A DNA stretch of 64,000 nucleotides. Source: Tausonia pullulans (lineage: Eukaryota > Basidiomycota > Tremellomycetes > Cystofilobasidiales > Mrakiaceae). Below are positions 23,790 to 64,000 of the stretch, one piece after another. The stretch spans positions 432,393-496,392 of the forward strand of contig OX637639.1 of NCBI GenBank assembly GCA_951802195.1, given 5' to 3'. Each line of letters starts with the position of its first letter. The stretch's first letter is position 1. Position numbers and translations under genes: made by a program. Below the pieces are notes generated by a model. The model saw nothing but the letters and a program-made list of their open reading frames with translations. It was not told where the DNA came from and made no database searches.

Positions 23790-25640
23790 ACGACCTTAGT
23801 CAATGGGAGGAAGCAGAAGGGGGTGTGTTGAGGGTGTTAGAATTGGACCAAGAGTCAAGGGATGAGGAGGATAGGTGAGGAGAAGGGCGTCGGTTGAGGG
23901 CTGCAAGATCGATCGCCTTGCCGTCCACCCGAGCAGATGGGGAAGGAAAAGGGTCGGTGATGCAGCCGTTGACGGCGAGCTTGGCGGTCTGGGAGGTCAG
24001 AATTGAGGGGATCAAGGCGGTGGCGCGAGGGCCCAAACCAAAGTGTTTGAAGCACTGCTAGACGAAGTTGCTAGAGACCGTCTCGTACACCTTCTGGAAG
24101 TCGACGAGGGCGGAGATGCCAGATCGCTTGCTTCCCTCCGTTGCCATATGGGTCTAGGGATTGGCCATTACGTGCCGATTCATCGTCTCCAGATGAAGTC
24201 GGTCTTGTCGGGAGCAACCAGGGACTTGACAGTCGAGCAGAGGCGGGCGGGGGAGAAGATGCGGGGCGGGAGTCGACGTTGATGAGGGAAATCGGGCGGT
24301 AGTTGACGATGAAATCGCGCGTGCAGGCCTTGTGAAGGGGGCAAACATGGAGAGTAGTTGGGAGGAGGAGAGCGTGCCGCTACAGAAATCAAGGTCCAGA
24401 AGCCTAAGGTAGATGGGATCTTTCACCTTTCTCACACAGTGATAGCACTCGGCGGGCAGCCGTCAGAAAGCCTCTGGCGCATTGCGGCTTCGGGCCTTGG
24501 AAATGGCTGCATCAGCCCTCAACTTCCTCAAGCCCTCTTCAAGGCGTGCCCTGTCCTTGTCAGAGAACTTCGCGTTGATGAAGCTGAGGACGTGGTCGTG
24601 ATCGGCTGGGAGGGTGGGCTTGGAGGCGGCAGAGATCATCAGAGTAGTGGCTTGCTGTGATGCGAAGGATGTCGGACGGGATGTCGCGCTGGACATATCA
24701 TCAGGCGTCGATCGGACAGAGAGAGATAGTGTCAGGTGGCGGACCTGTTTGAGACGGAGGCGGATACTGTACTCGGTGGAATCGATTGGGCGGGCAGATG
24801 CGGGTGTAAAGGGCGGCACCAACAGAATTGCGTGCGGATCGACCATCGAACGAGCGAGCAGTCGTGGATGGCAAGGACACAGGCGAGCTTGCTTGCGTGA
24901 TGGGCGATCTGACGCTTGGTGATGTCCCAGGCGATGGAGAGGTCGCCCAAGTAGGCGAGGGCGGCGTCATACCAGATAGGGAGGCCACTGGTAGGCGAGT
25001 CGACAAAGCCGGGGCGTTCGAGGTGAGTACCAACCGATTGATCTTGCACGAGTCGGGCCAAACAAACTAGGTGAGGCTCGGGACGGCGATCGGGGGATTG
25101 GTTGGCCAAGCGGGCTTGGCCCAGCAATTGCGCTTGATCGCAGATACAAGGAGGGAAAAGGTGGGGTAGAACCGGCCAAGGTGGCGATTGAAGCCATCGC
25201 TGGCAATAGTAGCGAAGAGGCGTTGCCTTGTGCAGCGAAAACGGAAGGGATCATCAACGAGGGGGAAATGGTGTACGAGCCAAGCATCTGCTCACTTCCT
25301 GGGGTTTCAGCGTTGGGTATTGAAAGTAAAGATACCTGTTTCCGATGAAGTTCATCCCCATCTAGGAGAAAAGGAAACTCGGGATGATCGAGCAACACTG
25401 AGGCGAAGTCACAAAGGAACTCAGCTTTGCGAAGGGCGGGGCCGGAGACACTCATAGAGACGTAGACAGCTACGACACGGATGTCCTTGTCGCTCGTATG
25501 GACATCGACATGGGGTGAGTGGGGAGTGAGGTAGAAAAGGAACTGAGAAATAGCGTTGACGTGAAAGGGAGAGTGATGTGGAGGCGAGAGTCCAGGCGTC
25601 AGAGGATCGCTACCTGAGCGTCCTTCTTCTTTCTCAATGG
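23790..25640 (-). mobile_element. Relic non-LTR retrotransposon (LINE): endonuclease and reverse transcriptase remnants
   Basis: Read on the minus strand, pieces of a LINE polyprotein occur in order. An endonuclease-like segment (FPFLLDGDEL, about 25350-25380) comes first, then a linker with many charged residues (KFSDKDRARLEEGLRKLRAD, about 24520-24580). The reverse-transcriptase signature NYRPISLINVDS lies at about 24270-24315, followed by LVDFQKVYETVSSNFV at about 24050-24115, which matches the DFxKAYD-type RT motif, and by VRQGD-like sequence (GGRQGD) near 23920. Frame changes and stops (for example a TAG right after SNFV) break it everywhere, so it is inactive. A Tad- or Cnl1-like clade is possible but not provable here. 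Boundaries are approximate. Confidence 0.75.
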
Positions 25641-25772: not shown

Positions 25773-26115
25773 TGTCGGGATCTCGCGGATTCACCATCAC
25801 CTCGGCTCCCAGCCTAGCCTGTGTAGCCTCTTGCTAGTTTGCTCAGCATTCCCATTTCCTCGGTCTTCTTCCGCCACGTTGTCCCTTACTCTTTCTCATC
25901 CTTCTCATCCCCTCCGTTGTTCGCACCCTCGTCCATACACGCGCAGTCCATAGTACATATCTGTTCTTCACTCTAAATATCGTTTGGACTCGACAAACCT
26001 GCCCAAGTTCTCGAAGCGAGCCCGTGCCACTGCCAGCACTTCAGAATTACTCCTCCACCGACGCCCTTGTCCTCACCCATCCTCCTCAGCCCTCGGCCCT
26101 TGGGCCAATCCTCAT
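25773..26115 (+). mobile_element. Solo LTR, copy A
   Basis: It starts TGTCGGGATCTCGCGG and ends near GGGCCAATCCTCA, the same ends as the intact copy at 42454-42892. Its middle and right parts are nearly identical to the reverse complement of 41880-42150. No matching target duplication is visible, so the ends may be eroded. Confidence 0.7.
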
Positions 26116-41855: not shown

Positions 41856-42213
41856 TGTTGGCTTTGGCCTAAGGGTCGAGGGCTGAGGAGGATGGGTGAG
41901 GACAAGGGCGTCGGTGGAGGAGTAATTCTGAAGTGCTGGCAGTGGCACGGGCTCGCTTCGAGAACTTGGGCAGGTTTGTCGAGTCCAAACGATATTTAGA
42001 GTGAAGAACAGATATGTACTATGAACTGAGCGTGTATGGACGAGGGGTGCGACCAACGGAGGGGATGAGAAGGATGAGAAAGCAAAGAGTGTGGGACAAC
42101 GTGGCGGAAGAAGACCGAGGAAATGGGAATGCCGAGCAAGGAAGAGAGAGGATACACCGGCGTCGAGTTGGCCAGGTACAAGGCTGAGGTATCAAGTTTG
42201 CGGTACCCTGACA
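41856..42213 (-). mobile_element. Solo LTR, copy F
   Basis: On plus it starts TGTTGGCTTTGGCC and ends GTACCCTGACA, the reverse-complement ends of the LTR family. The inner part is nearly identical to copy A at 25840-26100 in the opposite orientation. No target duplication is seen. Confidence 0.7.
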
Positions 42214-42453
42214 GGAGAAGAGTGTTTAGATGAGGAGGGGGAAGAATGAGGGGGAGAAATGACCGTGGTAGCCAGAGCGGAGAGAGGAAGAGGAGGTAGG
42301 AGTAAGAGAATACAACAAGGGGGCTATAAGGCAGAAAGAATGGAAAAAGGGGGTGGTGGAGAGGATTGGTGAGGAGATGAAAAGACAAAGATCAGAGACC
42401 TATCGTCCGATCGACCAACGTCGCCCTTCCTCGTCGCCTGCGACATATAAGAG

Positions 42454-42892
42454 TGTCAGGATCTCGCGGACTTGCCACCTTGGTTCTGCGCCTGGCTAAC
42501 TCTGTGCCTGTGTTGCCTTCTCCCTGCTTGCTCCGCATTCCCTCATCTTCGACCATTATTTCGCCACATTGGCTCACGCTACTTGTCTCGTTACTCTTTC
42601 TTCTCTTTATATTCGTCATCTGCCCTACAGTCTTTGCGTTCTCGCGTTTCTCACTCCCTCCCTTGTTCTTACCCCTGGTCCATAAAACGCTCAGTTCATC
42701 GTAGATTCCGTTCTGCACTCTGACTATAATTTAGACCCAACATACTTGCCCCAGCCCCTTAAGCGAGCCCGTGTCACCTCCATCACTTCAGTTCCATTTC
42801 ATCACCCGTCACCGCTCTCAGAACACCTGGTCGCCTATGTCCCTCTCCTTGCCTAATCTTCTCTGCCATCGATCCTTGGGCCAATTCTAACA
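42454..42892 (+). mobile_element. Solo LTR, copy B (intact, 439 bp, target duplication AAGAG)
   Basis: Starts TGTCAGGATCTCGCGG and ends GGGCCAATTCTAACA, the TG...CA ends of an LTR. It is flanked by AAGAG at 42449-42453 and AAGAG at 42893-42897, a perfect 5-bp target-site duplication. No internal retroelement domain adjoins it, so it is a solo LTR. Confidence 0.88.
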
Positions 42893-42965
42893 AAGAGGCC
42901 CTCGAGCTTCCTGTATTGTCGGTGTCGAAGGAGACATCATGTTTTCTTTGTATCTGTATCATAAA

Positions 42966-43426
42966 TTATACGTAGAGGACGAGGCAACTCTATGAAAGAT
43001 GGTGAGTCGTAGCTAGAAAGAGGGAGAGCGAAAATTAAAGAAGAGGTGGAAGGAAATCATAAAAAAATGGGTTATGGACATAGGCCCATTATAAAAGGTA
43101 AAATGGCCATGGTCAAAAGCGTTGATTGGAGATGACAGATGTAGGAGGTAAGAGGGGGCGGGGTAAGGTAGATCTACAAGTACATATCAAGATGACCAGC
43201 TATGTCGAGCGGTGGCTATGGCCTATGGTCTAACCATACTACACCACCCCTCACCTGCTTTTCACCCAGGATGGATGACGGCGCTGGCGGCAGTACCAGC
43301 CATCTGGCCACTGCGAGCCATCCACCTCGTGCTCGACTGCCAATGTATCTGCCGGATCGTGGCCGCGATCTTGCGGATCTCATCGTCCGTGACAGGGTCG
43401 AGGGCTGCGTTCCTACTGTACCTCCG
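42966..43426. repeat. 461-bp direct repeat, left copy
   Basis: Matches 63030-63490 at a constant offset of 20,064 bp with only two or three visible mismatches and no indels. The right third carries a minus-strand coding-like end (AALDPVTDDEIRKIAATIRQ ... VIHPG stop), so the repeat may be the 3' end of a gene plus its downstream sequence. Confidence 0.9.
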
Positions 43427-47420: not shown

Positions 47421-47499
47421 ACAGTAGACAATATAGAGAACATTTAGACGTGGCCTTAGATCGATGATCCTGAAACTCCGTCCTCAGCTGCGTTGGGTT

Positions 47500-47850
47500 T
47501 TGGGCCAATAATAACACATAGACCGGCTTTGACACAATTTTTTTTTCAATATGAAAAAATCCTGGTTCCACGACACACCGAATAAACAGCATCCCGCACC
47601 ATTGAGTGGCAAGGTCTGGCCGACCAGTACACACCGTGAGGCGGACCAGCCAACCACACTTAAGTTTAACTACGAGGTTTTTTTCAGCTGCAAAAACTTT
47701 ATTATTCGCCGTTGGAGCTGGGATTACCGCGGCTGCCGGCACCAGACATCTGATCCAATCGTTCCTCGTCAAGGGATTTTAATTGTAATTGTTCCATCTA
47801 TAAGACCCATAGAGCATTACAATGTCACTTGTTGTCCCAAACGAATCATC
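47500..47850 (-). pseudogene. Fragment of nuclear 18S rRNA, antisense on the plus strand
   Basis: The plus strand reads as the reverse complement of the central 18S region. GGAGCTGGGATTACCGCGG followed by CTGCCGGCACCAGAC (47714-47746) matches the universally conserved 530-loop complement. TTTAACTACGAGGTTTTTT, GTTCCTCGTCAAGGGATTT and AAGACCCATAGAGC match neighbouring segments in the correct order. CCACGACACACCGAAT lies upstream in the expected place. Scattered differences in normally invariant positions show it is not a functional rRNA. It lies between the convergent DHA1 and 47868-50526 genes and may be part of their 3' untranslated regions. Confidence 0.85.
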
Positions 47851-47867
47851 ACATATCGCGGCGGGCT

Positions 47868-52485: not shown

Positions 52486-53025
52486 GTTGCCCGTGGACAG
52501 CTTGTTCCCCTTAGCAGCCCTCTTCCACACCTCCTGCTTGCCTCCGCTGCTGTGAGCATATCCTCTCCATCACAATATGATTTTGCAACAGGTTGCATGT
52601 GCTCCTTTCAGGTTCTGAGGCGGCTTTCTATTCTCGGTTTCTGCTTGGCCCTTGCCAAGGCGTGAATACTAATCAAATCGCCTCGCACACATTTGCTGCG
52701 GCAAAGTTTTAAGGCGGCTATCTAATCTTGAGATTACTATTCGGCCCTTGCCAAGGCGTGAATATCACTCAAATCGCCTCACATAGATCCGGGCGAGTGG
52801 ACGATCGACCATCCGGGAACAGCTCACTCGCCGGCTCTCGGGATCGTCGGCCAAAGCGAGGACAAAGAGTGCCGATATTTTCCGCCTCTTGGCCGTCGCT
52901 GGCCGTCGCGGTCTTCTCTCTTTTTACGACGATTTCTCAACCTCTCACCTCTCCACTTCCGTCCGGCTTCCCCTCCCCCCCTTCGTTTTCCCTCCGAATC
53001 CTTCTCTCTTCAAGCGGGCTCCGCC
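52486..53025. promoter_or_regulatory. Upstream region of the peroxidase gene with an imperfect tandem repeat
   Basis: Two copies of a roughly 75-bp unit lie at about 52616-52690 and 52711-52786. Each starts AGGCGGCT and ends AATCGCCTC and has GGCCCTTGCCAAGGCGTGAA in the middle, with a palindromic core CCTTGCCAAGG. The second copy ends about 240 bp before the peroxidase ATG. The repeat is visible; a regulatory role is inference from position. Confidence 0.55.
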
Positions 53026-56000
53026 ATGCTCCTCCTTACGGCCGTTTCCCTCCTCGCCCTTGCCTCGCCCTGGGCGACGACACTCGTCTCCGCCGACGTT
53101 GAGCCTAACATCCGTGCGCTAAGGACAGTCATGACGAACTCATTTTTCGTCGGCCTCGTCTCGCCATGTACCATTGGAGGATCGTCGTCTCGCACCAACG
53201 CCGCCGAGTGGCTTCGAACGGTGAACTCCTTCTGCGCTTGACTTCATTCTCTTATCGTCAGAACTGCTTTCGCTGACCACTGATTTTGCCGCTTCCCTCT
53301 TGCTCCTTCGGGTTTGGCCAGGCCTTCCACGACGCAGGTTCTCACGACGCTTCGACTGGTAGCGGGGGACTCGATGCCTCCATCGCCTTCGAGATGGGCT
53401 AGTCAGTTCGAGCCTCCTCTGCACTTCTCGCGTGATAAAGGACTGTGCTGACTGCCATCTTGTCTGATTGCCCTTGCGTTGCAGCTCGGAGAACACTGGA
53501 GCTTTCGTCTCTGCAACACTCACTCAGTTACGTTTGTTCCATGTAAGTTACAATGTGTTTGATCCTCCGCCCTCAAGTTCAGCGCTGCTTTCTAACTTTT
53601 TGCCGCTCTTGCCTTCTTGCAGAAATCTGGTGTCACTCTGGCCGACCTAATCGTTCTCGGGGCGATCACTGCCGTCGGTGTAAGTCCCCATTCCACGTCT
53701 CTCGCTCGATTCCTCGCTCACATTGCTAGTCTTGATGCTCTGCTTTTTGACAGTCCTGCGGAGGTCCCATCATCCCCTTCCACGCTGGCCGAAGGGACGC
53801 CAAGGCGCCCGTTGGAGAGGGGTTCCTCCCCCTACCGGAGCAGACGACCGAAACGCACATTCAGAAGTTCGCGCGCATGGGATTCTCAACGTGAGCCCGA
53901 CTTCTCCTACCTATCTGCTCTCTCAGAACGACGCTGACGCTTGAAGGGCTTCACTTTTTTTTTGTAGTGACGAGATGATCGCGCTTGTTGCTTGCGGTCA
54001 CACCATCGGCGGCGTTCACAGCGCCAACAACCCAGGGATCACGTCGCAGGTCGTCGCAGGGTGAGTTGTTAGCATCCCACTGTGCCTTACTTGTCGCATG
54101 TCTGAAGGTTCTGCGTGCTTCTTCTGCCAGCTTCGACTCAACCCGAACGGTGTTTGACAACCAGGTCGCTAAGGAGTACATCAATGGCTCGACCGTCAAC
54201 CCTCTAGGACAACACTACGACTCCTCTAACCCCGCTACCAGCTCTGATACCCGTCTGTTCTCGATCGACAAGAACGTCACGCTCGCTCGGTATGCCGCGT
54301 CCCAGTCGGCCATGTTCACTGACTGCAGCACCGTCTTCTCGCGGCTCTTTAACGATGGTGCATGGACCTCGAGCATCGTCCCTACACACCTTTTTCAACG
54401 CAGTCGCTGATGCTCTTTTGACTTGTTCGCACGCGTCTTCAGCTATTCCCGCTGGAACTTCGCTCACGTCCGCTCTTGAGCCCTACCCCGTCACTGTCGG
54501 CTTCCGAACGACTCTTCGCTCGGGGGCGTACCATCTTACGATTGCCAGCGCTCGGATCTACGACTTCGCCAGCTACCAGTCGTTCGAGATCATTTACCTC
54601 AACCGAGATGGAACGGTCGGCACCGACAGCAATCTCATCTCCCCGGGGGCGCCGAGGACTCTCAACAACGGCAAGAGCCTCACCGTCCGGTCATTCAGCA
54701 CTGTAGGTGCCACTCTCCATTTACATCTCGCCTTCGACCACTGCTGATCTACTTCTCATTCTCAGCGCTCGCCTGGAGTCGACCCCATCACTGGGTGAGC
54801 CCCCGCCTGGCCTTGAGACTGTGTCCCCTCTTCTCGGCCGGTGCTAACGACCCATCCTATCGCGCAGTATCTCCGCCATCAAGGTTGTCCTCACTCAGAG
54901 CGACGGGACCATCTATTCCAGCGCCGACGGAACCGAGATCGAGGAGATCGACGACACCAGTGAGTCTCACACCAGGCTTTTGATTCTCCTACATCATTCA
55001 GAGTTTGATCCTTTTGGCCTCTGCGCGCAGTCATGATCGTACGTTGGATCAGGCGGTTCACGAACGGCACGCCCATTGGAGGCTAACCCTGTTCCATTTA
55101 TACTCCTCCAGGACACAGGTGACGCCTACTCGTGCAAATACACTTCTTCTTCCGGCACCCTCGGCCTCAACATCACGATACAGGTCCTCGGTCCCTATAA
55201 TAAGCTCGACACGGTTGAGCTCTTGTACGATCTCGCTTCTGATATAACCAAGACGACCTACGGAACCCCCATCAAGGCCTCGTATCGACGTGCTCGAGAT
55301 GGAACGCCTTTCATAGTGAGTCTCCCCTGCTTACGTCCTCTCTGCTCAGCTAATGATTCTGGTTTTGTCTTCTTCGTGCATTTGTTCAATAGTACTACGG
55401 AGTATTCATTCCTAACGTCGCCGCCGCTAACATCGGCAACATCGCTACCCAGGTCATTCGAGCCGACGGATCTATCCATACGGACGACCGACAGGGTGCG
55501 TTGCTTCTTCTCCAAGTCTGAACCTCTTTTCCAACACCTCGCTGAAGATGAAAGCGTCCAACATTTCTTCTTCCAGGCCTCTATTATACCCAAGCCTCAC
55601 TCAGCGCTTGCGTGGCGGGCGCAACCATCCCCGTTGACGGACCTACCCCATCTGCCGGCTCGACGACTCGACGACTAGTGATCGACCAGGCCCGAAAGAG
55701 GGACGCCTGCTCCGCTCGAGGACTTGGCTACAAGCAGTGCGGCTCGGTCTGCATGAACACCTTCACAAGCCTCGAGAGCTGTGGTGGATGTCCCGGTGAC
55801 GAGGCGGCGATCGACTGCACGTCACTGGAACACGATAATGTCATGGAATGCATCAAGGGACAATGCGTCGCTTCTGGTTTGTCTTACCTCCATTTCTTCA
55901 AGTCTGCTTCAGTAGGGTGCACTGACGAGTTCTATTAATTTCTCAGCCCCGTCGTGGATGGTCAATCCTCGGGATTCCTTCCTTCGCCAAGTTCGCAAGA

Positions 56001-56635: not shown

Positions 56636-57040
56636 TGTTAAGATTGGCCCAGGGGTCAAGGGCTGAGGAGGATGGGTGAGAAAAGGGACGTAGGTGGAGT
56701 GGTAGACTGAAGTGATGGCAGTGACACAGGCTCGCTTCGAGGTCTTGGGCAGGTTTGTCAGGTCCAAATGATGCTCAAAGTGCAAAACAAAATCTACGAT
56801 GAACTGAGCGTTTTATGGACTAGGGGTAAGAACAAGGGAGTGGGTGAGAAGCGCGAGAACGCAAAGAGTGTAAGGCAGATGACGAATAAGAGAGGAAGGG
56901 TAATGAGACAGGGAGCGTGAGCCAATGTGGCGAAAGAATAGTCACAGATGAGGGAATGTGGAGCAAGGAAGGAGAAGGCTACACAGGCACAGAGTTAGCC
57001 AGGCGCAGAACCAAGGTGGCAAGTCCGCGAGATTTTGACA
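56636..57040 (-). mobile_element. Solo LTR, copy C
   Basis: On plus it starts TGTTAAGATTGGCCC and ends CGCGAGATTTTGACA. The body closely matches the reverse complement of copy B and matches copy D (63491-63779) in the same orientation. Flanks CTCAA and CTCCC do not form a perfect target duplication. It lies immediately downstream of the RTA1 stop. Confidence 0.82.
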
Positions 57041-57073
57041 CTCCCCTCCCCCCCTCCCCTCGCCCTCTATCTC

Positions 57074-63029: not shown

Positions 63030-63490
63030 TTATACGTAGAGGACGAGGCAACTCTATGAAAGATGGTGAGTCGTAGCTAGAAAGAGGGAGAGCGAAAATT
63101 AAAGAAGAGGTGGAAGGAAATCATAAAAAAATGGGTTATGGACATAGGCCCATTATAAAAGGTAAAATGGCCATGGTCAAAAGCGTTGATTGGAGATGAC
63201 AGATGTAGGAGGTAAGAGGGGGCGGGGTAAGGTAGATCTACAAGTACATATCAAGATGACCAGCTATGTCGAGCGGTGGCTATGGCCTATGGTCTAACCA
63301 TACTACACCACCCCTCACCTGCTTTTCACCCAGGATGGATGACGGCGCTGGCGGCAGTACCAGCCATCTGGCCACTGCGAGCCATCCACCTCGTGCTCGA
63401 CTGCCAATGTATCTGCCGGATCGTGGCCGCGATCTTGCGGATCTCATCGTCCGTGACAGGGTCGAGGGCTGCGTTCTTATTGTACCTCCG
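63030..63490. repeat. 461-bp direct repeat, right copy
   Basis: Near-identical to 42966-43426. Its right edge is exactly where LTR copy D begins, so the LTR inserted into this copy. The AT-rich sequence just left of it (TTTTTGTATTCAAGTCATGGG, 63010-63029) matches the third copy at about 43620, which shows the unit extends further left than the left copy does. Confidence 0.9.
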
Positions 63491-63779
63491 TGTTAGGATT
63501 CGCCCAAGGGTCGATGGCAGAGAAGATTGGGCGAGGAGGGGAACGTTGGCGATGAAATGTGCTGAGAGTGGTGGCGGGTGATGAAAGGGAACTGAAGTGA
63601 TGGAGGTGACACGGGCTCGCTTAAGGGTCTTGGGCAAGTTTGTCGGGTCCAAATGATAGTCAGAGTGCAGAACAAAATCTACGATGAACTGAGCGTTTTA
63701 TGGACTAGGGTTAAGAACAAGGGAGTGGGTGAGAAGCGCGAGAACGCAAAGAGTGTAAGGCAGATGACGAATAAGAGAG
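63491..63779 (-). mobile_element. Solo LTR, copy D, truncated by the terminal repeat array
   Basis: It starts TGTTAGGATTCGCCCAAGGG like the other minus-oriented copies and follows copy C closely up to GACGAATAAGAGAGG. There the sequence switches abruptly to the 13-nt repeat. The missing end corresponds to about the last 120 bp of copy C. Confidence 0.85.
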
Positions 63780-64000
63780 GTTGGGTCGGTAGGTTGGGTC
63801 GGTAGGTTGGGTCGGTAGGTTGGGTCGGTAGGTTGGGTCGGTAGGTTGGGTCGGTAGGTTGGGTCGGTCGGTAGGTTGGGTCGGTAGGTTGGGTCGGTAG
63901 GTTGGGTCGGTAGGTTGGGTCGGTAGGTTGGGTCGGTAGGTTGGGTCGGTAGGTTGGGTCGGTAGGTTGGGTCGGTAGGTTGGGTCGGTAGGTTGGGTCG
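63780..64000 (+). repeat. 13-nt G-rich tandem array (TTGGGTCGGTAGG), telomere candidate
   Basis: About 16 units of the 13-mer run to the window edge. All are identical except one longer unit with an extra GGTC (about 63865). The G-rich strand runs 5' to 3' toward the right end, as at a chromosome terminus. A subtelomeric minisatellite is the alternative. Confidence 0.85.

Follow-up and report, generated by a model that had tools for sequence, protein, structure and literature searches.

Does the right-hand end of the 64,000-nt stretch of DNA analysed here, which we call the window, carry a telomere built from something other than TTAGGG? Positions 63781–64000 of the plus strand hold a 13-nt tandem array of the unit TTGGGTCGGTAGG, with 16 full units followed by 8 nt and the G-rich strand directed towards the window edge. 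We propose that this array is a non-canonical 13-nt telomere, either the chromosome end itself or its inner part, in which TTGGGTCGGTAGG replaces TTAGGG, and we assign this reading a probability of about 0.7. The evidence that carries it lies in the array, in its orientation and in the way it truncates the sequence next to it.

A sequence-only reading of this DNA had described about 16 near-perfect G/T-rich 13-mers with the G-rich strand pointing outward, and both Tandem Repeats Finder and a unit-by-unit split confirmed that description. The program reported a single array at 63778–64000, with a period of 13, 16.8 copies, 96% matches and a score of 410; the runner-up among its 19 rows in the window scored 76. 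When the array is split from 63781, 15 of the 16 full units are exactly TTGGGTCGGTAGG, and the partial last unit is TTGGGTCG. The sole irregular unit, unit 7 (63859–63875, plus strand), reads TTGGGTCGGTCGGTAGG and is 17 nt long, its four extra bases being a 4-nt tandem duplication. Variation across the 16 units thus comes to one 4-nt insertion and zero substitutions. The longest run of period-13 self-match is 122 bases, compared with 8 in positions 1–63777. Allowing up to two mismatches, the unit pattern occurs 20 times in the window, with 17 of the matches inside the array, whereas 100 shuffles gave a mean of 1.10 and a maximum of 5. Base counts over 63778–64000 are G 120, T 68, C 18 and A 17, and the GC skew of the array reaches 0.74, compared with a largest absolute value of 0.63 elsewhere (223-base windows, every 50 bases). 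The array is, as expected of a telomere, a short, G-rich and homogeneous tandem repeat.

Outside the array, the window contains no exact match of at least 12 nt to the cyclic unit, the longest being 9 nt on the plus strand and 11 nt on the minus strand. A telomerase-RNA template, longer than one unit, was likewise not found outside the array within the window, where the longest match is 11 nt. The array extends to the final base of the window. This says little for a terminal position, since windows can be cut anywhere. Its G-rich strand is the plus strand and it lies at the right edge, so that the strand runs 3′ towards a chromosome end, as in a telomere, only if that end is to the right.

The left boundary of the array is more informative about its origin. 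The 190 bases before it (63591–63780, plus strand) are a copy of a dispersed repeat, of which the window contains four further clear copies, at 56.7, 42.6, 41.9 and 25.9 kb. In an ungapped comparison this copy differs from 56706–56895 by 13 mismatches, and its final 69 bases (63712–63780) are identical to the 56.7-kb copy. At 63781, where the array begins, this match ends, and only GGGT is common just beyond: other copies read AAGGGTAATG where the array reads TTGGGTCGGT, GGGT being present in both. One repeat copy is therefore truncated at 63780, with the array following immediately, giving the abrupt junction with non-telomeric DNA that is seen at telomeres. The four other aligned copies all extend past the junction point. 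The two closest do so directly (56706–57043, plus strand; 42451–42898, inverted, minus strand), and the two more diverged copies resume after a gap (41864–42161, plus strand; 25817–26108, inverted, minus strand), a continuation seen in the multiple alignment alone, as the pairwise matches of these two end short of the junction point. The cut end of the flanking repeat reads AGAGAGG. Its AGG (63778–63780, plus strand) is part of the flanking repeat and is present in the 56.7-kb copy; it also equals the last three bases of the unit, so that the array runs on in phase from the flank. This AGG is a possible telomerase seed.

The dispersed-repeat family itself could be a solo LTR, a MITE-like element or a gene fragment. 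Its copies at 25817–26108 and 41864–42161 form an inverted pair with 93% identity over 298 aligned bases, and 63485–63773 matches 42610–42898 at 88% identity in inverted order. A partial sixth relative (23835–23899, 65 bases, 83% to 41856–41920) was omitted from the copy count and from the multiple alignment. Further inward from the array, the segment 63006–63490 (plus strand) is 97.7% identical to 42942–43426 and represents a recent duplication. Within it, 447 bases (63030–63476) recur without a mismatch 20 kb away (42966–43412), and mismatches flank the identical stretch on either side; this identity adjoining the array reflects a duplication, or a gene conversion, of very recent date. The repetitive DNA close to the window end thus consists of short dispersed repeats together with a 0.5-kb duplication. 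Elsewhere, 52612–52687 and 52706–52783 are adjacent copies of a 76–78-base segment, with 79% identity.

An array capping a truncated repeat copy is the pattern that healing of a broken end by telomerase would leave, and we infer from it a terminal array of telomerase origin. A chromosome break inside the dispersed repeat would have exposed a 3′ end reading ...AGAGAGG, the AGG of which could pair with the telomerase RNA template, with telomerase then adding TTGGG... from there. The predicted template would be a little over one unit long, of the complement type 5′-CCUACCGACCCAA-3′ with a few alignment bases repeated, and each round would copy 13 nt before translocation. Healing of the broken copy by telomerase primed in this way would account for the junction, the phase and the orientation, and also for the lack of substitutions among units and the lack of any other unit copy in the window. 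In the 17-nt unit 7, telomerase might have slipped back 4 nt on GG while copying; ordinary replication slippage explains this unit equally well. G-quadruplex formation was dropped as strong support for a telomere, as the model energy is weak: the thermodynamic model gives −1.4 kcal/mol for three units (39 nt), compared with −12.6 for six TTAGGG repeats (36 nt).

Several other identities were considered and rejected. A TTAGGG pair is absent from the whole window, the longest stretch common to the unit and (TTAGGG)n is 4 nt, and the unit contains neither TTAGGG nor a TTAGGG/GGGTTA core; on these grounds a canonical or a mis-called TTAGGG telomere was rejected. A mobile or plasmid origin was set aside because 63500–64000 has no match in plasmids or phages, although low-complexity filtering may have hidden the array itself from that search. 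Viral contigs and prokaryote genome contigs lack the two-unit 26-mer, which says little for collections of viral and prokaryotic sequence. A 17-mer has one match in a viral contig (L001), single and with no surrounding array, and we take it to be chance. Text searches with the 13-nt unit on both strands returned no paper that, judged by title, concerns telomeres of this unit; they covered open-licence articles, in which units held in supplementary tables or written as formulae escape, and the negative is weak evidence of absence.

Could the array have arisen without telomerase? A short G-rich stretch in the repeat copy might have grown, through slippage at replication or through unequal exchange, into an internal minisatellite, inside which the window happens to be cut. 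Such an origin would suit a single array seen in a window that ends within it, and the 17-nt unit, which polymerase slippage fits as well as telomerase slippage does. The duplicated sequence around the array suggests active recombination, and the GGGT common to the array and the other copies at the junction leaves some room for a local origin. Local expansion sits poorly, however, with the clean end of the repeat copy at the array and with the lack of any exact unit match of at least 12 nt outside the array, even in the four related repeat copies, and it would make the strong G/T bias and the outward orientation coincidental. We regard it as unlikely. Telomerase could instead have made the array at a repaired break or an end fusion, leaving an interstitial telomeric block inside the chromosome with more unique or subtelomeric sequence beyond. 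The same sequence evidence that speaks for a telomere would speak for such a block, as would the duplicated repeats flanking the array. Old interstitial telomeric blocks usually carry substitutions, though, and here the innermost units are perfect and the window ends within the array. We find this alternative improbable; were it true, it would still mean a telomerase making the 13-mer.

Two further explanations seem barely credible. A tandem repeat within a minus-strand protein-coding gene would need an open frame, and on that strand each of the three frames does run through the array without a stop, giving P/T/Q-rich repeats. This openness follows from the C strand of the unit, which lacks a stop trinucleotide, and each of the three frames stops 70–102 bases beyond the array. 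A coding repeat was rejected because neither 13 nor 17 nt is divisible by three: the frame shifts at each unit, and no single frame is kept. Assemblies are often faulty at their ends, and long-read base callers misread telomeres, so that a mis-called canonical telomere, an adapter concatemer or a collapsed repeat has to be considered as well. Against a sequencing or assembly artefact of this kind stand the 13-nt period without hexamer phase, the lack of TTAGGG in the array, the lack of substitutions among units and the clean junction, and its probability is accordingly minute.

The telomere reading had also been said to fit a subtelomere-like flank rich in LTR elements and transporters, and here the evidence is thinner. 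The left part of the window encodes a Brr2/SLH1-family helicase, whose Sec63 exon is closest to yeast SLH1 and whose next exon is closest to human Brr2, together with a DDT-domain protein and a possible importin-9-like protein that scores 24.9 bits, under the curated cut-off of 27. A gene for a Utp7/BING4 protein follows at 36.4–37.3 kb. Left of 37.5 kb, Pfam matched 5 of the 19 ORFs submitted. Of the 139 ORFs in the interval 37.5–63.9 kb that reach 85 aa, 86 were submitted to Pfam: MFS_1 was found in two and a CPL1-like domain in one. No reverse transcriptase or integrase domain occurred among these 86 of 139 ORFs, a search that broken or short elements may escape, and four further 10-ORF sets, partly overlapping the 86, likewise yielded no LTR-retrotransposon domain. 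The LTR-rich flank thus found no support in the ORFs searched, and the transporter-rich one is reduced to its two MFS_1 matches. GC content is 0.60–0.67 in 1–16 kb and 0.52–0.61 in 40–64 kb. It is also 0.52–0.61 in 16–26 kb, and one repeat copy (25.9 kb) even lies to the left of the conserved Utp7 gene, so that there is no clean subtelomeric gradient. The context is suggestive only: it would suit a subtelomere without demonstrating one. What remains for the telomere reading is the G/T-rich unit, the outward G strand, the lack of substitutions and the clean junction that truncates the repeat, with the LTR and transporter support having failed or proved weak.

Other features of the window bear on the host. 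An intron of the helicase gene is 63 nt long, has GT-AG ends and contains CTGAC, as it might in a fungus, the probable host. The CPL1-like domain (PF21671, E 1.6e-08) lies at 55552–55935 on the plus strand. This domain is mainly basidiomycete, and together with a GC content near 60% it is tentatively consistent with a basidiomycete. On the minus strand, 47462–47855 is a degenerate piece resembling eukaryotic 18S rRNA (62 bits, compared with a gathering score of 50); it is well conserved around CAGCCGCGGTAAT, lacks most of the gene and is perhaps an rRNA pseudogene.

The literature describes TTAGGG as widely retained in Basidiomycota, whose TRF-like and Tay1 proteins bind it specifically (PMC7952879). 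The array at this locus may point to a fungus, probably a basidiomycete, that has lost both TTAGGG and the GGGTTA core and acquired a regular 13-nt unit, so that the template of its telomerase RNA and the proteins that bind its duplex telomere must have changed in concert, as happened in budding yeasts, though here in a separate lineage. We put this broader proposal at about even odds. If it is true, the co-change of telomerase RNA and telomere-binding proteins, a standing question, becomes testable, and a long regular unit would ease finding the telomerase RNA gene by its template, as it did in Aspergillus oryzae (PMC3603654).

How, then, does the unit compare with known telomeres? Among basidiomycetes, a TelFinder survey of 21 species reports mostly TTAGGG, with variants of 5–8 nt (PMC10100673). 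The variants described include TTAGGA, TTAGTG and TTAAGTG in Malassezia, TTGGA in Hericium and TTAGGGGG in Agaricus (PMC10100673, PMC12506658); the four telomere repeats of Malassezia are attributed mainly to template changes in a candidate telomerase RNA (PMC12506658). The array studied here resembles these variants in departing from TTAGGG, but the named ones are 5–8 nt long and near TTAGGG, and none is 13 nt. TTAGGG telomeres are described for the red yeasts Rhodotorula taiwanensis and R. pacifica and for Salmacisia buchloeana. The contig ends of the two Rhodotorula species resemble ours in carrying a G-rich array, theirs being of the hexamer TTAGGG, and the GC content of R. pacifica, 59.4%, is similar to that of the window.

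Longer units are known outside the Basidiomycota. In Aspergillus oryzae, A. flavus and relatives the telomere unit is the 12-nt TTAGGGTCAACA (PMC10100673; A. oryzae also PMC3603654), and the telomerase RNA of A. oryzae was found through a template search helped by the long unit (PMC3603654, PMC10100673). A. oryzae thus offers a parallel for one regular long fungal unit. Unlike the unit here, that of this ascomycete keeps TTAGGG, and the longest stretch common to the two is GGGTC, 5 nt. The units of A. oryzae and Yarrowia are reported to keep a TTAGGG or GGGTTA element read by Tay1-type Myb proteins (PMC10100673, PMC7952879); the 13-nt unit is without the GGGTTA element that Tay1-type proteins read. 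This lack, like the predominance of TTAGGG in the basidiomycete survey, weighs against the telomere reading. Drechmeria coniospora, with a 12-nt repeat CCGTTGCTGTTG without TTAGGG in a computational call by TelFinder (PMC10100673), offers a parallel for a long TTAGGG-free unit in a fungus that is neither a budding nor a fission yeast, but it belongs to the Pezizomycotina and its repeat is unrelated in sequence. Zygotorulaspora florentina (genome G+C 41.03%) carries a 13-bp TGTAGGGGTGTGG at one end of five of eight chromosome-sized contigs (PMC13248683), equal in unit length to ours and also G/T-rich; it differs in being an ascomycetous yeast with an unrelated repeat sequence. Beyond the fungi, the 12-nt Allium telomere CTCGGTTATGGG is likewise long, G/T-rich and telomerase-made and has TCGGT (5 nt) in common with our unit, although it comes from a plant and the rest of its unit is distinct. 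Long regular fungal telomere units are already known in ascomycetes, a precedent that favours reading the 13-nt TTGGGTCGGTAGG as a telomere.
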